A DNA stretch of 64,000 bases from Bdellovibrio sp. BCCA (GTDB lineage Bacteria > Bdellovibrionota > Bdellovibrionia > Bdellovibrionales > Bdellovibrionaceae): contig NZ_JBBNAC010000001.1 in NCBI RefSeq assembly GCF_037996825.1, forward strand, positions 3,658,001 through 3,722,000. The letters run 5' to 3'. A program made the translations under genes and the position numbers. Position 1 is the first letter of the stretch; each line of letters starts with the position of its first letter. Below, piece by piece: positions 8,567-15,518 of the stretch. The notes under the pieces were generated by a model. The model ran no database searches. It was not told where the DNA came from and was given only the letters and a program-made list of their open reading frames with translations.

Positions 8567-8938
8567 TTATTTTTTAAACTTCAAACTTTTCCAAAAATTA
8601 TAAGTCCGACGAAAAAGCCTATTTAAAATCGGACGAGGAGATTTATCCGGATGCTTCCGATAATACTCTTTTCGATCGATTGCATCTCTCAAGGAGTTTA
8701 TAAAAGCATCGACTATATCCTCTTCATTTTTAAAGTCATAAATTTCAAACCTTCTATCGTACCACTCCGATGAAAAATCGGAATCACCGGTATCATAGAT
8801 CCAAAACCTATAGTCAGAAATTTTACCAGTGATATATGGTTTATTATTATCATTCGATAAATATCGGATTTCGATTTCAAGTTCAGTAGACAAATCTTCT
8901 AATCGTTTCACGTATTTTTTTTGAATTTCATTTTTCAT
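8567..8938 (-). CDS. probable immunity protein for the upstream Rhs toxin
   Basis: 123 residues, cytoplasmic (no signal peptide), with a basic C-terminus (PILNRLFRRTYNFWKSLKFKK region). The ATG overlaps the Rhs stop codon as ATGA (8935-8938), which indicates translational coupling. A small unrelated gene directly behind the variable end of an Rhs protein is the standard position of a cognate immunity gene in polymorphic toxin systems. The sequence is rich in aromatic residues and Asp/Glu in the middle (YRFWIYDTGDSDF). I recognise no named immunity family. The function is inferred from position only. Confidence 0.65.
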   Translation of the reverse strand: MKNEIQKKYVKRLEDLSTELEIEIRYLSNDNNKPYITGKISDYRFWIYDTGDSDFSSEWYDRRFEIYDFKNEEDIVDAFINSLRDAIDRKEYYRKHPDKSPRPILNRLFRRTYNFWKSLKFKK

Positions 8939-11900
8939 AGAGGTCCCAAGTCAAGGAAGTCTATATGTCCATTCTTAATACCAGGCACTCCTTTTCGTTC
9001 AAGCCACTCAATCACTTGGCCGGATGCCCTGAATACTTTATTGCCACCATTTCTGCCTAAACCGATTCTTAAGTATCTATTGGAATTTGCGAGCTTACAT
9101 ACAGGTCCCGCAGCTGCTGCACTTCCCACGGCGGCAGGAACACCTATCAATTCATCTAGCGCCGCGCCTGGCGTGTCCAGATCAGTGGAATATAGAACTC
9201 CCAACGCGACACCAACAATTACTGGAATTGCAAATTTGCCATTTGGATCAATGAAATTTACCGGATCTGAAAAGGAATAACCATAAAGATTTGTTTCAAC
9301 TCCTGGAACTTTTCCAACTGTGTTTAAATATCCGTACAAATTTACTCCACCACCGTTGAATAAAATTGGATCTTTACTCGTCCACCGCCCAATTTCAGGA
9401 TCATAATCACGTGCGCCAAATTTTAATAAGTTAGTTTTTTCGTCATAAATTCCACCTGCGAATCCATATGGTTGGAATCCAACGTTGGTATTTGACAAGA
9501 TTTTACCCCATTCATTGTATTCAATTTGTTGTACGGGAACGCCACTTTCGGCATTTACCACAAGACGAGGCGATCCAAGATGATCTTTAAGAATTCTATA
9601 ATATTTATCGTGAACCCGCATAAAGTCAGGAGAACTCGAGTGAGAAGAATAAAAAAACTCTTTCACTTGCTTAGTCTTTTCATTTATTTGCATTGCGATT
9701 TGGTTTTGTGACTGAAAAATATTTCGATATATTTTCTCATCGTTTAAAAAACCAAAAATTCTACGCCCCGCCGAATCAATTTTATACTGAACTTTTTCTC
9801 CAATCCCTAAATGTATTTCATTTAATTCTCCGAATTGGTCATAATTATAAATGTCTTTGGATAACACACCTATTTGTTTTGAAATTAAATCTCCGTTGGA
9901 ATTATAAGAAAATGAAGTGGATCTAAAACTAAGAATTCTATCTTGATCATCAAACGTCGAAAAAAAAGAAATCCCTCCGATAACTCCTGATATTCGATTT
10001 CCATTGGCATCATAAACATATTTACTGTATGTAGAATTATTTTTCTTAACTTCAATGAGTCGGCCCGAACTGTCGTAAAGGTATTCGAATTCTGTTGTTC
10101 GACCTAAAATTGTCTCAATTTTCCCAATAATTCTTCCAGTTAAATCTCTCCTTAGTATATATGAGTATAAATCCTGAGAAGGGCCTGCCTGTGAGTTGAA
10201 CGTAGAAGTGTACGATTCTAAGTCTCCATACTGATCATACGTTCTAACATCAGCAATGCCTCGCAATTGTGTCGATTTCAACCTTGCCGAATCGGAATAA
10301 TAGGCAATGCTCATGGGGCCTATACTCTTTATTTTTCCGATATTGTTATATGCGTAATTGACCTTGGACGATGTCAACAATGTATCTGCATTTACCACGC
10401 GCCACAAAAGACGCAATTCATTATCGCGCTCAAACAATATACTTGAAAATCCTGAAGTATCGGCTTGTCTTTCGGAACGAACTATTTCTCCAGCATAAGA
10501 ATATTCGGTTTTTATTCCGCTAATTGCACGTACTGATTTTATTCGTTCTGAATTAGGAAAATAAGTGTATTCTTCTTTCGCAAAGCCGGACTGGAAATTT
10601 GAAAGCAAGCCTGAAATTGAATCATAGTTATAAATAAGAGCTTTTCCGTCGGGCCGCTGAATGCTGGTCACCTGCTTATCCAAATTGTATGTATAGCGTA
10701 TACTAGAAGAATTCCCTCCTATTTGCGGAGCATTATATTGCGCAACTAAGTCCATTATATTAATAGTAAACTCATGCCGCGATCTTCCTGGAGGAGTTAT
10801 GCTAACGAGATTTCCATTTACGTCGTAGTCATAACTTGTCTCTCTCCCATCTGAAAAAACCTGTTTTTTTACTCTACCTACTAAGTCATACTGAAATGCC
10901 GTCTCTTCATTTCTAGCATTTTTGATTTTCTCGAGGAAACCATTTGAGCTGTAAGTAAAATTCGTAGCTTTTTTCGCGCCTTGCTTCAACTCAGATAAGC
11001 GACCACGCAAATCGTAAGAATATGTCCAGGGAATGTCGTTAGCATATTGAGATTTTATTGGCCTCTCATACGAATCTAAAGTTGTTGAAGTAATAACACC
11101 GTTAAAGTTTTTAAAAGAAAGAATTTTGGAGGAGGAATTATAAACATTCTCTTGAGTCATTCTAAAGTTATCTACAACTTTAGTTGATATTGTTTTCAAT
11201 GTGGAAAAAGAAAATGGATTCGAGAGCGACGAGGGCGTTACTTCATAAGTGAAGGTCGTTAGATTACTTTTGCGACCAATAAAGTCAGTTTCTCTTGCCA
11301 AAACTTTTTTTATACTCCCAAATCTGATGTCATCTGAGACCTCTCTGTTTTGGCTTCCAGTATAACTTTGAAAAAAAGTGCCACCATTTGAATATGATTT
11401 CTGTAAATCTGATTCACCCGACGGCTGGGTTTCAATACTTGAGTAGCTGTTATCGACCTCATTTACATTGAAATTATATGTCCAAGTTCTACCCATCTTT
11501 GATTTTTTGGTAATCTGGTTACCCGACCATTCCAAATTTAAGGAAAAATCCCAAGAAGGACCTGCACTATCCCTATCAGAGGCCAGTCGTCCCGATTCCG
11601 TATACGTCATTTCAGAGAACTGACCATTTGGTCTATAAAATCGTTTCATCAGTTCTGTATTTGAATAGTAAGTGATTTTATATTTCTCATTATTAGGATT
11701 TGTGACGGTCGCTATCAAGCCATTAGCTCCAGTAGTAACCTGAGTCTCTTGCCCATATGGTGATTGAATAGTTGTCAGTCGTCCGGAAGAGTCTCGAAGA
11801 AATTTTGTTTCATTTCCAAATGCATCTGTAATTTTTGATAGCTTCGAAGAAGAATCATACGAAAATTTGTACTTTTCATATCCAGTTAGTTCGCTTCGTG

Positions 11901-12672
11901 TTTTTAAGTGCCTACCAGAACCATCGAAAACGTAGACCTCGCCATTGCTAACCACAGAGTCATTTCCATCTCCATAGTTTGCATAACTCTTCTCGACAGA
12001 GTTTCCGTTTCCAGTGAACAGTCTCTGGTTCACGCGGTCATAGTAGTGAACTATATCGACAGTCCAAGCTTCGGGATTAAAAGATGGACCTCGATGAATT
12101 TTTGGGTATGAGGTAATAAAATCTAAGGCGTACCCGGAAGAGTAATAGAGATTAAAATTTGTACCCACTATTGGAATTAACTCTCCAACAGTTAGATTAT
12201 CTACGTTTATAATTGAACCATTTGACTCACGTGTGCACTCGCCAATTGGTTCGTTATATGCCAAACCCGTGCCCTCGAAGGAAATATCTGTGGTGCTAGA
12301 ATGCGGAACTCCGTCTTCGTCTACCCCAGTTAACGTGGCTTTATATACAGCCTGATAAGTTTGAGCAGCTGTTGGTTTAAATCTTGCGATAAAGGTACAT
12401 TTTTGGCCTGGATTTAAACTCCTTCCTGCGCAGTTATTACTTATTATACTAATTGAAGAAGATGTCGAGATTGCGGACCACGCGATACTAAATGTAGCCG
12501 TACCAGTATTTTGAATAAATCCTTCAAGTTCTGACGAGTTGTACAAATAGGTGACGGGAAATCGATATTCGTTATCAGCGAGATTTGATGAGATCAATGC
12601 ATCTTTTTTAGAAGATGCAAAGCAAGATAAAGTTGTAACCAACAATAGGAAAGAATAAGGAATGTATTTCAT
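8935..12672 (-). CDS. Rhs/YD-repeat protein with variable C-terminal domain
   Basis: 1245 residues from the ATG at 12670-12672, chosen because GTGGAG lies 6-9 bases upstream and the product then begins with a signal peptide (MKYIPYSFLLLVTTLSCFA). An in-frame ATG 36 codons upstream would bury that peptide. After a choice-of-anchor/ASPM-like beta domain (about 35-140, ending FEGTG) come many YD repeats (forms such as YDSSGRLIEV and YDANGNRI) that build the Rhs shell. The core box is RDYDPEIGRWTSKDPI, then NLYGY, then FIDPNG. The last 100 residues differ from the core: a hydrophobic stretch, a Gly/Ala linker, then a polar end (NRYLRIGLGRN to HIDFLDLGPL) that would be the toxin. There is no PAAR or VgrG domain, so Sec export rather than a T6SS is suggested. 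By eye the gene is more AT-rich than its neighbours. Confidence 0.88.
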   Translation of the reverse strand: MKYIPYSFLLLVTTLSCFASSKKDALISSNLADNEYRFPVTYLYNSSELEGFIQNTGTATFSIAWSAISTSSSISIISNNCAGRSLNPGQKCTFIARFKPTAAQTYQAVYKATLTGVDEDGVPHSSTTDISFEGTGLAYNEPIGECTRESNGSIINVDNLTVGELIPIVGTNFNLYYSSGYALDFITSYPKIHRGPSFNPEAWTVDIVHYYDRVNQRLFTGNGNSVEKSYANYGDGNDSVVSNGEVYVFDGSGRHLKTRSELTGYEKYKFSYDSSSKLSKITDAFGNETKFLRDSSGRLTTIQSPYGQETQVTTGANGLIATVTNPNNEKYKITYYSNTELMKRFYRPNGQFSEMTYTESGRLASDRDSAGPSWDFSLNLEWSGNQITKKSKMGRTWTYNFNVNEVDNSYSSIETQPSGESDLQKSYSNGGTFFQSYTGSQNREVSDDIRFGSIKKVLARETDFIGRKSNLTTFTYEVTPSSLSNPFSFSTLKTISTKVVDNFRMTQENVYNSSSKILSFKNFNGVITSTTLDSYERPIKSQYANDIPWTYSYDLRGRLSELKQGAKKATNFTYSSNGFLEKIKNARNEETAFQYDLVGRVKKQVFSDGRETSYDYDVNGNLVSITPPGRSRHEFTINIMDLVAQYNAPQIGGNSSSIRYTYNLDKQVTSIQRPDGKALIYNYDSISGLLSNFQSGFAKEEYTYFPNSERIKSVRAISGIKTEYSYAGEIVRSERQADTSGFSSILFERDNELRLLWRVVNADTLLTSSKVNYAYNNIGKIKSIGPMSIAYYSDSARLKSTQLRGIADVRTYDQYGDLESYTSTFNSQAGPSQDLYSYILRRDLTGRIIGKIETILGRTTEFEYLYDSSGRLIEVKKNNSTYSKYVYDANGNRISGVIGGISFFSTFDDQDRILSFRSTSFSYNSNGDLISKQIGVLSKDIYNYDQFGELNEIHLGIGEKVQYKIDSAGRRIFGFLNDEKIYRNIFQSQNQIAMQINEKTKQVKEFFYSSHSSSPDFMRVHDKYYRILKDHLGSPRLVVNAESGVPVQQIEYNEWGKILSNTNVGFQPYGFAGGIYDEKTNLLKFGARDYDPEIGRWTSKDPILFNGGGVNLYGYLNTVGKVPGVETNLYGYSFSDPVNFIDPNGKFAIPVIVGVALGVLYSTDLDTPGAALDELIGVPAAVGSAAAAGPVCKLANSNRYLRIGLGRNGGNKVFRASGQVIEWLERKGVPGIKNGHIDFLDLGPL

Positions 12673-12944: not shown

Positions 12945-13092
12945 CATCATCATGTCTGGATCTCCAGTGATGAGGACTGACAATCGCGCGAACAGGTCTG
13001 TAGTTATTTCAGACCCTCCTAAACCCATCTGCAACTGAGGGCCACCTAGAGTGGCCCGGGAATTGATAATGCATCTCCTGATATCACAGGAG
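12945..13092 (+). promoter_or_regulatory. structured leader with Shine-Dalgarno inside a hairpin
   Basis: Four hairpins follow one another before the TonB-like gene. (1) CATCA/TGATG (12948-12952 with 12968-12972) continues past a 3-base bulge into CTGG/CCAG. (2) GGTCTG/CAGACC lies at 12995-13015. (3) GGGCCAC/GTGGCCC lies at 13039-13057 with loop CTAGA. (4) CTCCTG/CAGGAG lies at 13075-13092. The last arm contains the AGGAG that serves the ATG at 13098, so folding would hide the ribosome-binding site. None is followed by a T-tract. I match it to no known riboswitch class. Candidate cis-regulatory RNA. Confidence 0.5.
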
Positions 13093-13097
13093 TACCT

Positions 13098-14468
13098 ATG
13101 GGTTTTAATATGGACGACGACAAGTCAAATAATAAGGATCAGCTGAGTCTTTTTGACTTTCAGATACCCAAGGCAGACTTCGTTCCTGCGAAAAAAGAAG
13201 AAGGTTCCGCGGCCATTGATTTTGATATTTGGATGATGGCTCATCGCGAACCAGAGCAAAGCAAAACATCTCGCTTTATGACGGTCTCTGCCGTTGTTCA
13301 TGCCGCAGCGATTTTGTTGGTCGCTATGATGACCGTGCCTCTTGTTGAACAAGCAAAAACTGAAACCATCACGATTGAAATTGAAGATGTTAAACCGCCA
13401 GTAAGAATGGCGCGTGGTGCACCTGTACCGCCAACTCAAGGTGGAACTCCGGCAAAAGAAATAACTCCTGTTGTTGAAAAACTGGAGGACGCGGGCAGCC
13501 CTAACGACGTTATTGTTGCAAAACCAAAGGCCACTTCCAAAGCAGTAGCAAAGGCGAAAGCCGCGACTCCAAAAGCGAAAGCTTCTGCAAAAGTCGCTGC
13601 CCATGCCACTCCCAAGGCAGGCGTTGCCAAAACGGCGGGAAGAAGTATTGCCCCTAAAGCAACGATGAAAGCTGTTCCAATGACTATCGATGATATCGAT
13701 GCTCCGGAACTCGATGAAGGCGAAGTTGCCAATGCCAAAGTCGCCTCTCAAATGAACGAGGACTTCAACGAAGATTTTGAAAACATCGATAACTCAAGAA
13801 GAGCGGCTCTTGAAAAAGAAAAGAAATCCATGGATGCCATGGCCGCCGCTCTCGCAGCAGAACAAGATGAAAATCTGAACGCCCTTGACGAGGCAAATAA
13901 AGAAGAGGCTTCTCGTTTAGCGGCAGCACAGGATTCTTTACGTAAGAAAAATGCCAACGCCATTGCCTCGGCTTTGGCTTCTGAAAAAGCCGCCGCCGCT
14001 GCTGCAGCTCGTGAAGCCGCAGCTCGCGAAGCCGCTGCAAAACGCGCAGGACTTGGTGGAAACGGAAATGGTCTTGGCACTAAAGAAGGTTCTGGCGCAG
14101 GCAACACGGGTTCTCAAGGCCCAGGGACTCAGGTCGCAGGAATGCCGCAAGGAGTTCGCAGCTTGGATCAACTTCGTCAAATGCCTGGAAATCCACGTCC
14201 ACAGTATGATCGCGAAGAGCGTCGTCGTGGTGACCAAGGTAAGGTGGCTTTCGTTGCTTACATCAGCAAAGAAGGTTACCCAAGTCAGTTCAGAATGATT
14301 TCATCGACTGGATTTAGAAACTTGGATTCAAAAACTTTGGCCGCTCTAAAAAAATGGCGCTTCTATCCTGGACAAGAAGGATGGGTTGAGCTTCCATTCC
14401 GTTGGGACTTAAAAGGTGGTATTCAAGAAGACGGCGGATTGTTACGTCGAAGTGTAAGCCGTCGCTAG
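13098..14468 (+). CDS. TonB/AgmX-like energy-transducing envelope protein
   Basis: 456 residues in the layout of TonB-type proteins: a cytoplasmic N-terminus of about 58 residues, one transmembrane helix (about 60-82, VSAVVHAAAILLVAMMTV), a Pro/Lys/Ala-rich periplasmic region, a long Ala/Glu-rich coiled-coil segment (about 225-325), a Gly-rich linker, and a C-terminal domain (about 370-445) with the TonB-like pattern of a polar strand, then LDSKTLAALKKWRFYPG. The unusually long cytoplasmic part is more like the AgmX/GltJ-type proteins of gliding and predatory bacteria than E. coli TonB. No exbB/exbD partner is nearby. The AGGAG start signal lies in a hairpin of the leader. Confidence 0.75.
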   Translation: MGFNMDDDKSNNKDQLSLFDFQIPKADFVPAKKEEGSAAIDFDIWMMAHREPEQSKTSRFMTVSAVVHAAAILLVAMMTVPLVEQAKTETITIEIEDVKPPVRMARGAPVPPTQGGTPAKEITPVVEKLEDAGSPNDVIVAKPKATSKAVAKAKAATPKAKASAKVAAHATPKAGVAKTAGRSIAPKATMKAVPMTIDDIDAPELDEGEVANAKVASQMNEDFNEDFENIDNSRRAALEKEKKSMDAMAAALAAEQDENLNALDEANKEEASRLAAAQDSLRKKNANAIASALASEKAAAAAAAREAAAREAAAKRAGLGGNGNGLGTKEGSGAGNTGSQGPGTQVAGMPQGVRSLDQLRQMPGNPRPQYDREERRRGDQGKVAFVAYISKEGYPSQFRMISSTGFRNLDSKTLAALKKWRFYPGQEGWVELPFRWDLKGGIQEDGGLLRRSVSRR

Positions 14469-14477
14469 TTCGAAAAC

Positions 14478-15518
14478 TTATTTCATGTAAGTGACACTAT
14501 AGAGGGACTCTTTGAGTTCCTCTTTTGTTATCCAGATATTGCCTTGTTCGCAGCGATTGCGAAATTTCGGATAGTACGTCGAGCAATCACTTCCCCAGGT
14601 ATTGCGAATCAAATAATGACATTGACCTTTGATCATACGACGAGCTGCAATCACGCTGGAGTGATCCGCGTGTTTATTATCTCCGCCTTCATCGGGAGGC
14701 ATGATTGTATAAGCGTTGTAACCAATCGCTGACACGCGACCGTTTTCTAACGCCGAATCAATGGTCGCGAAAAGTTTTGCGGCGCCCTGGTCTTTTGTGA
14801 TTTCACCTTTTTTGATGCGCTCTTCGTATTGAGCTAAATCATCACCGAATTTCACCATCACCGGGATTAAAGGCACGGGCCAAGGCTTGCGCTGACAGCG
14901 CTTATCAAGCTCTGTCTCATAAACATCGGCCATCGCTACCGAAAGCGGATCGACGATTGCCGAAGTAAAGTCTGTTTGCGGTCGAAACAGAGGGCATCGA
15001 TTGACGTCTTGATAGCTTTTATTTTTCTTGTAGTGCACGCGCGCGATATTTTTTAAAAACTTCATTTGATTGTCTTCAGTAGACGGAAAGTTTTTTTCTG
15101 CACACATGCCTTTGGCATTCGCAAGCAAGATTGTTGTATCTTCTTGGCCACCAGTATCAGTAAGACCCGCTGAATTTAAAATATTTTGCGGATCATATTT
15201 TCCCGCAGATTCTTTGCGGTGTGTTTGCACGCGGTTGTAGAAATCTGGATTTTCCTGCAAATAATTTTTCACTTCCGGTCGAGAAGAATGTTCGAGCTGA
15301 TAAGGGTCCGCCAGAATAAACGTCGATGCGATATCAGTAGCAGAAACTCTTTGTTTGACCCTTTGAGAAATTAAATCGGCCGAAGTGTAAGCAAAACACC
15401 AGCTAAGCTCACCCTGATCGCGGTTAGGCCCCAGCTCGGATCGATAATCGATACTGGAACACGACTCTTTGGCGTGAGCGATGGAGATAAAACTAAGAAC
15501 GATCAGAAAAGCCTTCAT
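14478..15518 (-). CDS. papain-like (C1) cysteine protease, exported
   Basis: 346 residues with a signal peptide (1-16, LIVLSFISIAHA). The papain-family active site is present: oxyanion Gln35 in RDQGELSWCFAY, nucleophile Cys41, His286 in DHSSVIAARR, and Asn306 in LIRNTWG. Six or more Cys in the C-terminal part (CHYL, SDCS, NRCEQ) suggest disulfides. It is longer than minimal papain, with an insert between the Cys and His lobes. An exported protease fits degradation of prey or extracellular protein. It is convergent with the TonB-like gene, 9 bases away, with no clear hairpin between. Confidence 0.85.
   Translation of the reverse strand: MKAFLIVLSFISIAHAKESCSSIDYRSELGPNRDQGELSWCFAYTSADLISQRVKQRVSATDIASTFILADPYQLEHSSRPEVKNYLQENPDFYNRVQTHRKESAGKYDPQNILNSAGLTDTGGQEDTTILLANAKGMCAEKNFPSTEDNQMKFLKNIARVHYKKNKSYQDVNRCPLFRPQTDFTSAIVDPLSVAMADVYETELDKRCQRKPWPVPLIPVMVKFGDDLAQYEERIKKGEITKDQGAAKLFATIDSALENGRVSAIGYNAYTIMPPDEGGDNKHADHSSVIAARRMIKGQCHYLIRNTWGSDCSTYYPKFRNRCEQGNIWITKEELKESLYSVTYMK

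Follow-up and report, generated by a model that had tools for sequence, protein, structure and literature searches.

A conserved -24/-12-like element, a helically phased upstream box and a ribosome-binding-site hairpin before a TonB-like gene of Bdellovibrio: a candidate composite promoter

Introduction

Hiding the ribosome-binding site of a message is one way of controlling translation. In the lysozyme gene e of phage T4 and in the fold-back inhibition of IS10, the ribosome-binding site is hidden only in run-in or early transcripts. In translational riboswitches and RNA thermometers a hairpin also pairs the Shine-Dalgarno sequence (SD), and these systems are recognised by a conserved structured aptamer or sensor upstream of that hairpin. 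At the level of DNA, the sigma54 (RpoN) promoters follow the consensus TGGCAC-N5-7-TTGCT (PMC12316311), and their activator sites usually lie 100-150 bp upstream (PMC7057263). The RpoN protein of B. bacteriovorus HD100 is encoded by bd0843 (PMC3464611).

This study addresses the leader of a TonB-like gene in Bdellovibrio sp. BCCA, in a window of 64,000 nucleotides (the whole stretch of DNA analysed). The leader (12945-13092) precedes a gene for a TonB_C-domain protein of 456 aa (13098-14468, + strand; PF03544, E 6.7e-12; TIGR01352), which has an orthologue in 24/24 genomes of the genus. Like the sigma54 promoters, the candidate tonB-like promoter has GG-N10-G spacing, GGC and TTG halves and an upstream phased site, in a genome with rpoN and sigma54 activators; unlike them, it has A at position -12 (elsewhere T or G) in place of C, and its upstream box lies at about -73 rather than at the usual 100-150 bp (PMC7057263). 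As in T4 gene e and IS10, transcripts from upstream carry an inverted repeat over the SD, and the 5' arm of this repeat would be removed by the predicted own start; here, however, the gene is a chromosomal envelope gene with a -24/-12-like promoter, and the start site is a predicted one. The hairpin pairs the SD, as in riboswitches and RNA thermometers, but unlike these the leader has no conserved upstream structure, no Rfam match, and conserved blocks with the behaviour of DNA sites. A literature search on the leader or the promoter found no report, and the main text of the attack-phase start-site map (PMC3627812) makes no mention of TonB.

Results

Hairpins of the leader

Four hairpins had been described in the leader by a sequence-only reading, and all of them are found there. 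H1 lies at about 12947-12973 (TCATCA/TGATGA with CTGG/CCAG), H2 pairs GGTCTG (12995-13000) with CAGACC (13010-13015), H3 (13039-13057, + strand) pairs GGGCCAC (13039-13045) with GTGGCCC (13051-13057), and H4 pairs CTCCTG (13075-13080) with CAGGAG (13087-13092), 5 bases before the ATG at 13098. Each hairpin is present, but the set is no more stable than chance: the fold of 12945-13120 has -51.9 kcal/mol (z -1.19), and 22/200 shuffles are equally stable. H4 is absent from the minimum free energy (MFE) structure of this stretch, in which other pairs form instead, and present in the centroid. Across genomes, H4 recurred with compensatory changes, but H1-H3 were not conserved. The H2 pairing (at least 5/6 bp) occurs in 3/22 genus sequences and the H3 pairing (at least 6/7 bp) in 2/24 genus genomes, H3 overlapping the -24 element described below. 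H1 is located upstream of the conserved block A, and the place equivalent to it is the coding end of the upstream gene where that gene is nagZ-like. The three were rejected as conserved structures on these grounds.

A search of the Rfam families with the leader gave zero matches, in line with the earlier failure to recognise a known family, and a riboswitch or other Rfam family was accordingly rejected. The RNAalifold consensus structure of the genus upstream regions (G013 and G015 left out) contains weak pairs around the start codon only. In the MFE fold, AAACCCAT (13021-13028) pairs with the region of the start codon; by eye, this pairing is seen upstream in G014 as well but not in general, and it was rejected as chance. 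An intrinsic terminator between blocks A and B was found in only 3/47 sequences (G008, G016, G045), so attenuation is not a general feature. The proposal that the leader has the layout of a translation-controlling riboswitch or thermosensor was not borne out, as no conserved structured aptamer or sensor lies upstream of the SD hairpin, H1-H3 are unconserved and without an Rfam match, and the conserved blocks behave as DNA sites. The wider idea of a cis-regulatory RNA for the TonB-like gene is supported for the conserved H4, which would hide the ribosome-binding site, but not for H1-H3 or for the conserved blocks. From its sequence, the leader looks mostly like promoter DNA with two phased protein-binding sites, and not riboswitch-like.

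Block B, a -24/-12-like element

Alignment of the upstream regions across the genus shows two conserved blocks, A and B, with variable sequence between them. Block B of the window, TGGCCCGGGAATTGAT (13052-13067, + strand), is a -24/-12-like core promoter element, with GG at 13053-13054, TTG at 13063-13065 and A as the -12 base at 13066. Its conserved sequence, TGGCCYRGGAATTGATARTGC, begins at 13052 and is near-identical at the TonB_C gene in 21/24 genus genomes, with altered versions in G004, G013 and G015. Outside the genus the block shrinks to GGC[CA][CT]-N5-TTG, which is the spacing of sigma54 promoters, and its form GG-N10-G has the -24/-12 geometry of a sigma54-dependent promoter. Scored against the sigma54 consensus, block B of the window gave p=0.002. 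Scores of p<0.05 were obtained in 24/24 genus upstream regions and in 36/57 from outside the genus, where start codons were hand-picked and true orthology is uncertain for some of the distant matches; the reversed-region control gave 0/24 and 1/57, respectively. The protein had a match in 95 genomes of the order, and 81 sequences were scored; seven matches were excluded as near a contig end or short (G054, G057, G085, G108, G120, G122, G127), and seven others had no choosable start codon or the contig ended (G066, G069, G091, G093, G095, G106, G118).

The -12 base is A in 22/24 genus genomes, G in G015 and T in G013, and thus not the canonical C, which occurs in the distant relatives G107, G094, G133, G090, G031 and G037. 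Outside the genus, position -11 is mostly A by column frequencies. The canonical sigma54 form is enriched in the genome of the window (26 vs 9 for the backward-read pattern), whereas the variant carrying A or T at -12 shows no enrichment (29 vs 24), so the tonB-like promoter is atypical even in its own genome. This genome contains rpoN and at least 12 strong sigma54-activator domains. In other families, block B occurs without a recognisable block A.

Block B was also considered as a widespread operator, and this was rejected: across 66 genomes of the family, the sites that differ by no more than 1 mismatch are nearly all at the TonB_C gene leader, namely in 21 genus genomes, plus one site in G054, and all remaining rows have 2 mismatches. 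G003 carries the block B leader on two contigs. Blocks A and B were also compared by eye with the consensus sequences of heat-shock, FliA, ECF and Fur sites, and these readings were rejected, as none fitted consistently across genomes. The FliA consensus reported for Bdellovibrio is TTAAG-N16-CCGATA (PMC3627812).

The geometry of block B alone places the predicted transcription start at 13078 (+ strand), with an uncertainty of about 3 bases. The spacing of the -24/-12 element thus predicts that transcription would start inside the leader, a case that the sequence-only reading had named as speaking against its own proposal. In the genus of G055, G051 and G028, block B is close to the ATG, with the predicted start 2-4 bases before it and no clear SD, and these messages are possibly leaderless.

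Block A and its distance to block B

Block A (12977-13010, + strand) is seen in the genus alignment and, by eye, as a similar block before a second gene, and is probably an activator site. Its palindromic core, GTAGTTATTTC (GWA-N5-TWC), lies at 13000-13010, 53 bp from the GG of block B. The palindrome was searched for freely, 25-135 bp upstream of block B, in 51 family sequences; block B was absent from 3/54 family sequences (G029, G035, G039) and was assigned by hand, in a GGTC form, in G013, G026, G042 and G046. The search returned 43 matches in 41/51 sequences, of which 34 lie 51-54 bp from block B; the other nine are at 62-63 bp (five), 73-74 bp (three) and 92 bp (one). A control palindrome of the same composition gave 12 scattered matches. 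Set against a period of 10.5 bp, the nine deviant distances would align by chance with a probability of about 2e-5 (about 1e-5 without the two extra sites of G100), the deviants being partly non-independent and the period being suggested by part of the same data. The sequence of G048, obtained after the phasing prediction was fixed, fitted it; palindrome scoring of G027 and G046 came at a later stage. Judged by these comparisons, the quantised distance is DNA helical phasing, which keeps A and B on one face of the helix.

Upstream of the tonB-like gene of G100 there are three GWA-N5-TWC palindromes, at 52, 73 and 92 bp from block B, an arrangement that would suit several activator dimers with about two helical turns between neighbours.

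Hairpin 4 and transcripts from upstream

The anti-SD arm of H4 (CTCCTG, 13075-13080, + strand) and its SD arm (CAGGAG, 13087-13092, + strand) were assessed by folding against shuffles and by compensatory changes. The stretch after TTG beats 95% of its own shuffles in 16/24 genus genomes (window p=0.043), and in 2/26 sequences outside the genus; G035, G053 and sequences without a block B match were left out of this test. The two arms have changed jointly, with CTCCTG/CAGGAG, CTCCTCT/AGAGGAG, GACCTTTG/CAGAGGTC in G004 and TTCACC/GGTGAA in G013, G015 being excluded from the alignment. On the protein tree, the difference between the first two pairs looks like one change on one branch, so the compensatory changes are few events and not many. 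The hidden ribosome-binding site of the sequence-only reading is upheld by this recurrence across the genus, and comparison of the arms indicates that H4 is real and under selection.

Opening of the SD costs a median of 6.9 kcal/mol when the run-in arm is present, vs 3.0 with shuffled arms, and 2.3 kcal/mol in the predicted native transcript, vs 2.6 shuffled. The contrast between native and run-in messages is significant in 14/24 genomes and not in 10/24, and in a longer run-in transcript the cost is at least 2 kcal/mol above the native one in 21/24 genomes. Because the start predicted from block B falls in the 5' arm of H4, the SD would be hidden in run-in messages and not in native ones. The native start is placed in this arm by block B geometry alone, and the result for the window flips if it lies 3 bases earlier, when the native mRNA also hides its SD (7.7 kcal/mol). 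The SD pairing that a run-in filter would need in upstream-derived transcripts is conserved in 16/24 genus genomes.

A source of such transcripts is suggested by the neighbouring genes. A co-directional upstream gene, presumably nagZ-like in most genomes, ends 105-226 bases before the ATG in 20/23 genomes (G003 is cut by a contig end), and is lacking in G000, G006 and G020. The window is an exception, its upstream RHS-repeat gene now being on the opposite strand. This gene, for an RHS/YD-repeat protein (8935-12672, - strand), occupies the place that a co-directional nagZ-like gene has in most of the genus. On the other side, a gene for a secreted 346-aa protein (14478-15518, - strand), with no Pfam or NCBIfam match, is convergent to the tonB-like gene.

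A second gene with the same layout

A search pattern that joins box A to block B by a fixed gap, allowing no more than 1 mismatch, matches the tonB-like leader and a second place in G000, G001, G003, G014 and G019. When box A was lengthened and 2 mismatches were allowed, G006, G008, G009, G015, G016 and G017 also showed the second place. By eye, comparison thus shows a second, unrelated gene with the A-B layout at equal spacing in 11/24 genus genomes; the patterns used a fixed gap, and other spacings would escape. We take the second gene to encode a secreted coiled-coil protein of about 158 aa in the five genomes examined, and the gene next after it in the genome of the window to be tatA-like. 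By eye, the block A of the second gene resembles that of the tonB-like gene along some 30 bases, and no SD hairpin like H4 is seen; position -12 holds T or G and not C. In G000, the second candidate A-B promoter, at 842-1700 of the locus L258 (C1:2065288 onward), stands before the coiled-coil and tatA-like genes, a possible two-gene envelope regulon.

Discussion

Our best reading is a composite sigma54-type promoter combined with a filter of transcript origin, to which we would give an even chance. Comparison establishes that A and B are conserved, that their spacing is phased, that a second gene shares the layout and that H4 is under selection; the nature of the sigma factor, the place of the start, the regulator and the filtering of run-in messages are inferred. 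A regulator would bind box A, whose palindrome has its centre about 73 bp before the start, and activate RNA polymerase, most likely in its sigma54 form, at element B, with A and B held on the same face of the DNA. Transcription would start near 13078, within the 5' arm of H4, and the native mRNA, free of most of the anti-SD arm, would therefore be translated. Run-in transcripts from the upstream gene would carry the whole arm, folded over the SD, and stay untranslated. This reading is favoured by the sigma54-like block B in 24/24 genus genomes and 36/57 sequences beyond, the canonical -12 C of distant relatives, the phased block A, the second gene with equal layout, rpoN and the sigma54 activators, H4 with its re-paired arms, the SD opening costs and the co-directional upstream gene in 20/23 genomes; it is opposed by the A at -12, a form not enriched in the genome, box A at about -73, the hidden native SD of the window if the start lies 3 bases earlier, the lack of a significant contrast in 10/24 genomes, the oppositely oriented upstream gene of the window and a second gene without an SD hairpin.

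The same blocks can be read differently. Block A could be a sigma70-type promoter (CTGACA, followed by a TG and an A/T-rich -10), from which a leader of about 90 nt would run with H4 as a translational riboswitch, thermosensor or protein-bound operator and block B as a conserved RNA motif. Many genus genomes do have CTGACA and an extended -10-like TG before an A/T-rich run, H4 shows compensatory changes, and the A-B spacer forms a somewhat more stable fold than its shuffles (6/24 genus genomes at p<0.05). However, the T expected at -7 is unconserved, the -35-like hexamer is absent in several genomes, the A-B distances track the DNA helical repeat, block B is found without a recognisable A in other families, H1-H3 are not conserved, and the same layout precedes a gene without an SD hairpin; we consider this reading unlikely. 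A different sigma factor, or two transcription factors, could instead bind this promoter DNA, with GG-N10-G as a formal likeness to sigma54 promoters and H4 perhaps still filtering run-in transcripts. The A or T at -12, the mostly A at -11 outside the genus, the lack of genome-wide enrichment of this form and a second gene that also lacks C at -12 agree with such non-sigma54 proteins, but sigma54 would account for the two halves, the distance between them and the canonical C of several relatives, and we regard the involvement of such other proteins as improbable.

The role of H4 may also be other than filtering. As an inverted repeat straddling the predicted start, it could be the DNA operator of a repressor, or could stabilise the native mRNA as a hairpin at its 5' end. 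Its 3' arm, however, is nearly always the SD, the joint change of the arms suits RNA pairing better than a fixed protein site, and the predicted start falls within the 5' arm rather than at the end of that arm, so that either role seems very unlikely.

The composite sigma54-type promoter can be extended to a promoter class special to the Bdellovibrionales, which we put forward tentatively, at somewhat short of an even chance. Such promoters would have a -24/-12 element without C at -12, helically locked to a palindromic activator box that precedes the start by about 73, 83 or 94 bp, and would drive a small envelope regulon of the TonB-domain protein and the secreted coiled-coil protein beside a tatA-like gene. 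The tonB-like start would lie inside a hairpin that hides the ribosome-binding site, with only transcripts from its own promoter being translated.

The A-B spacers of about 53, 63 and 74 bp offer a clean comparative example of helical phasing of DNA in the course of evolution. If the proposed model is true, a predatory bacterium would have a tightly gated envelope regulon, in which a phased activator and a core promoter are joined by an added translational check that rejects run-in transcripts, and it would become testable what RpoN (bd0843 of B. bacteriovorus HD100; PMC3464611) does in envelope functions.
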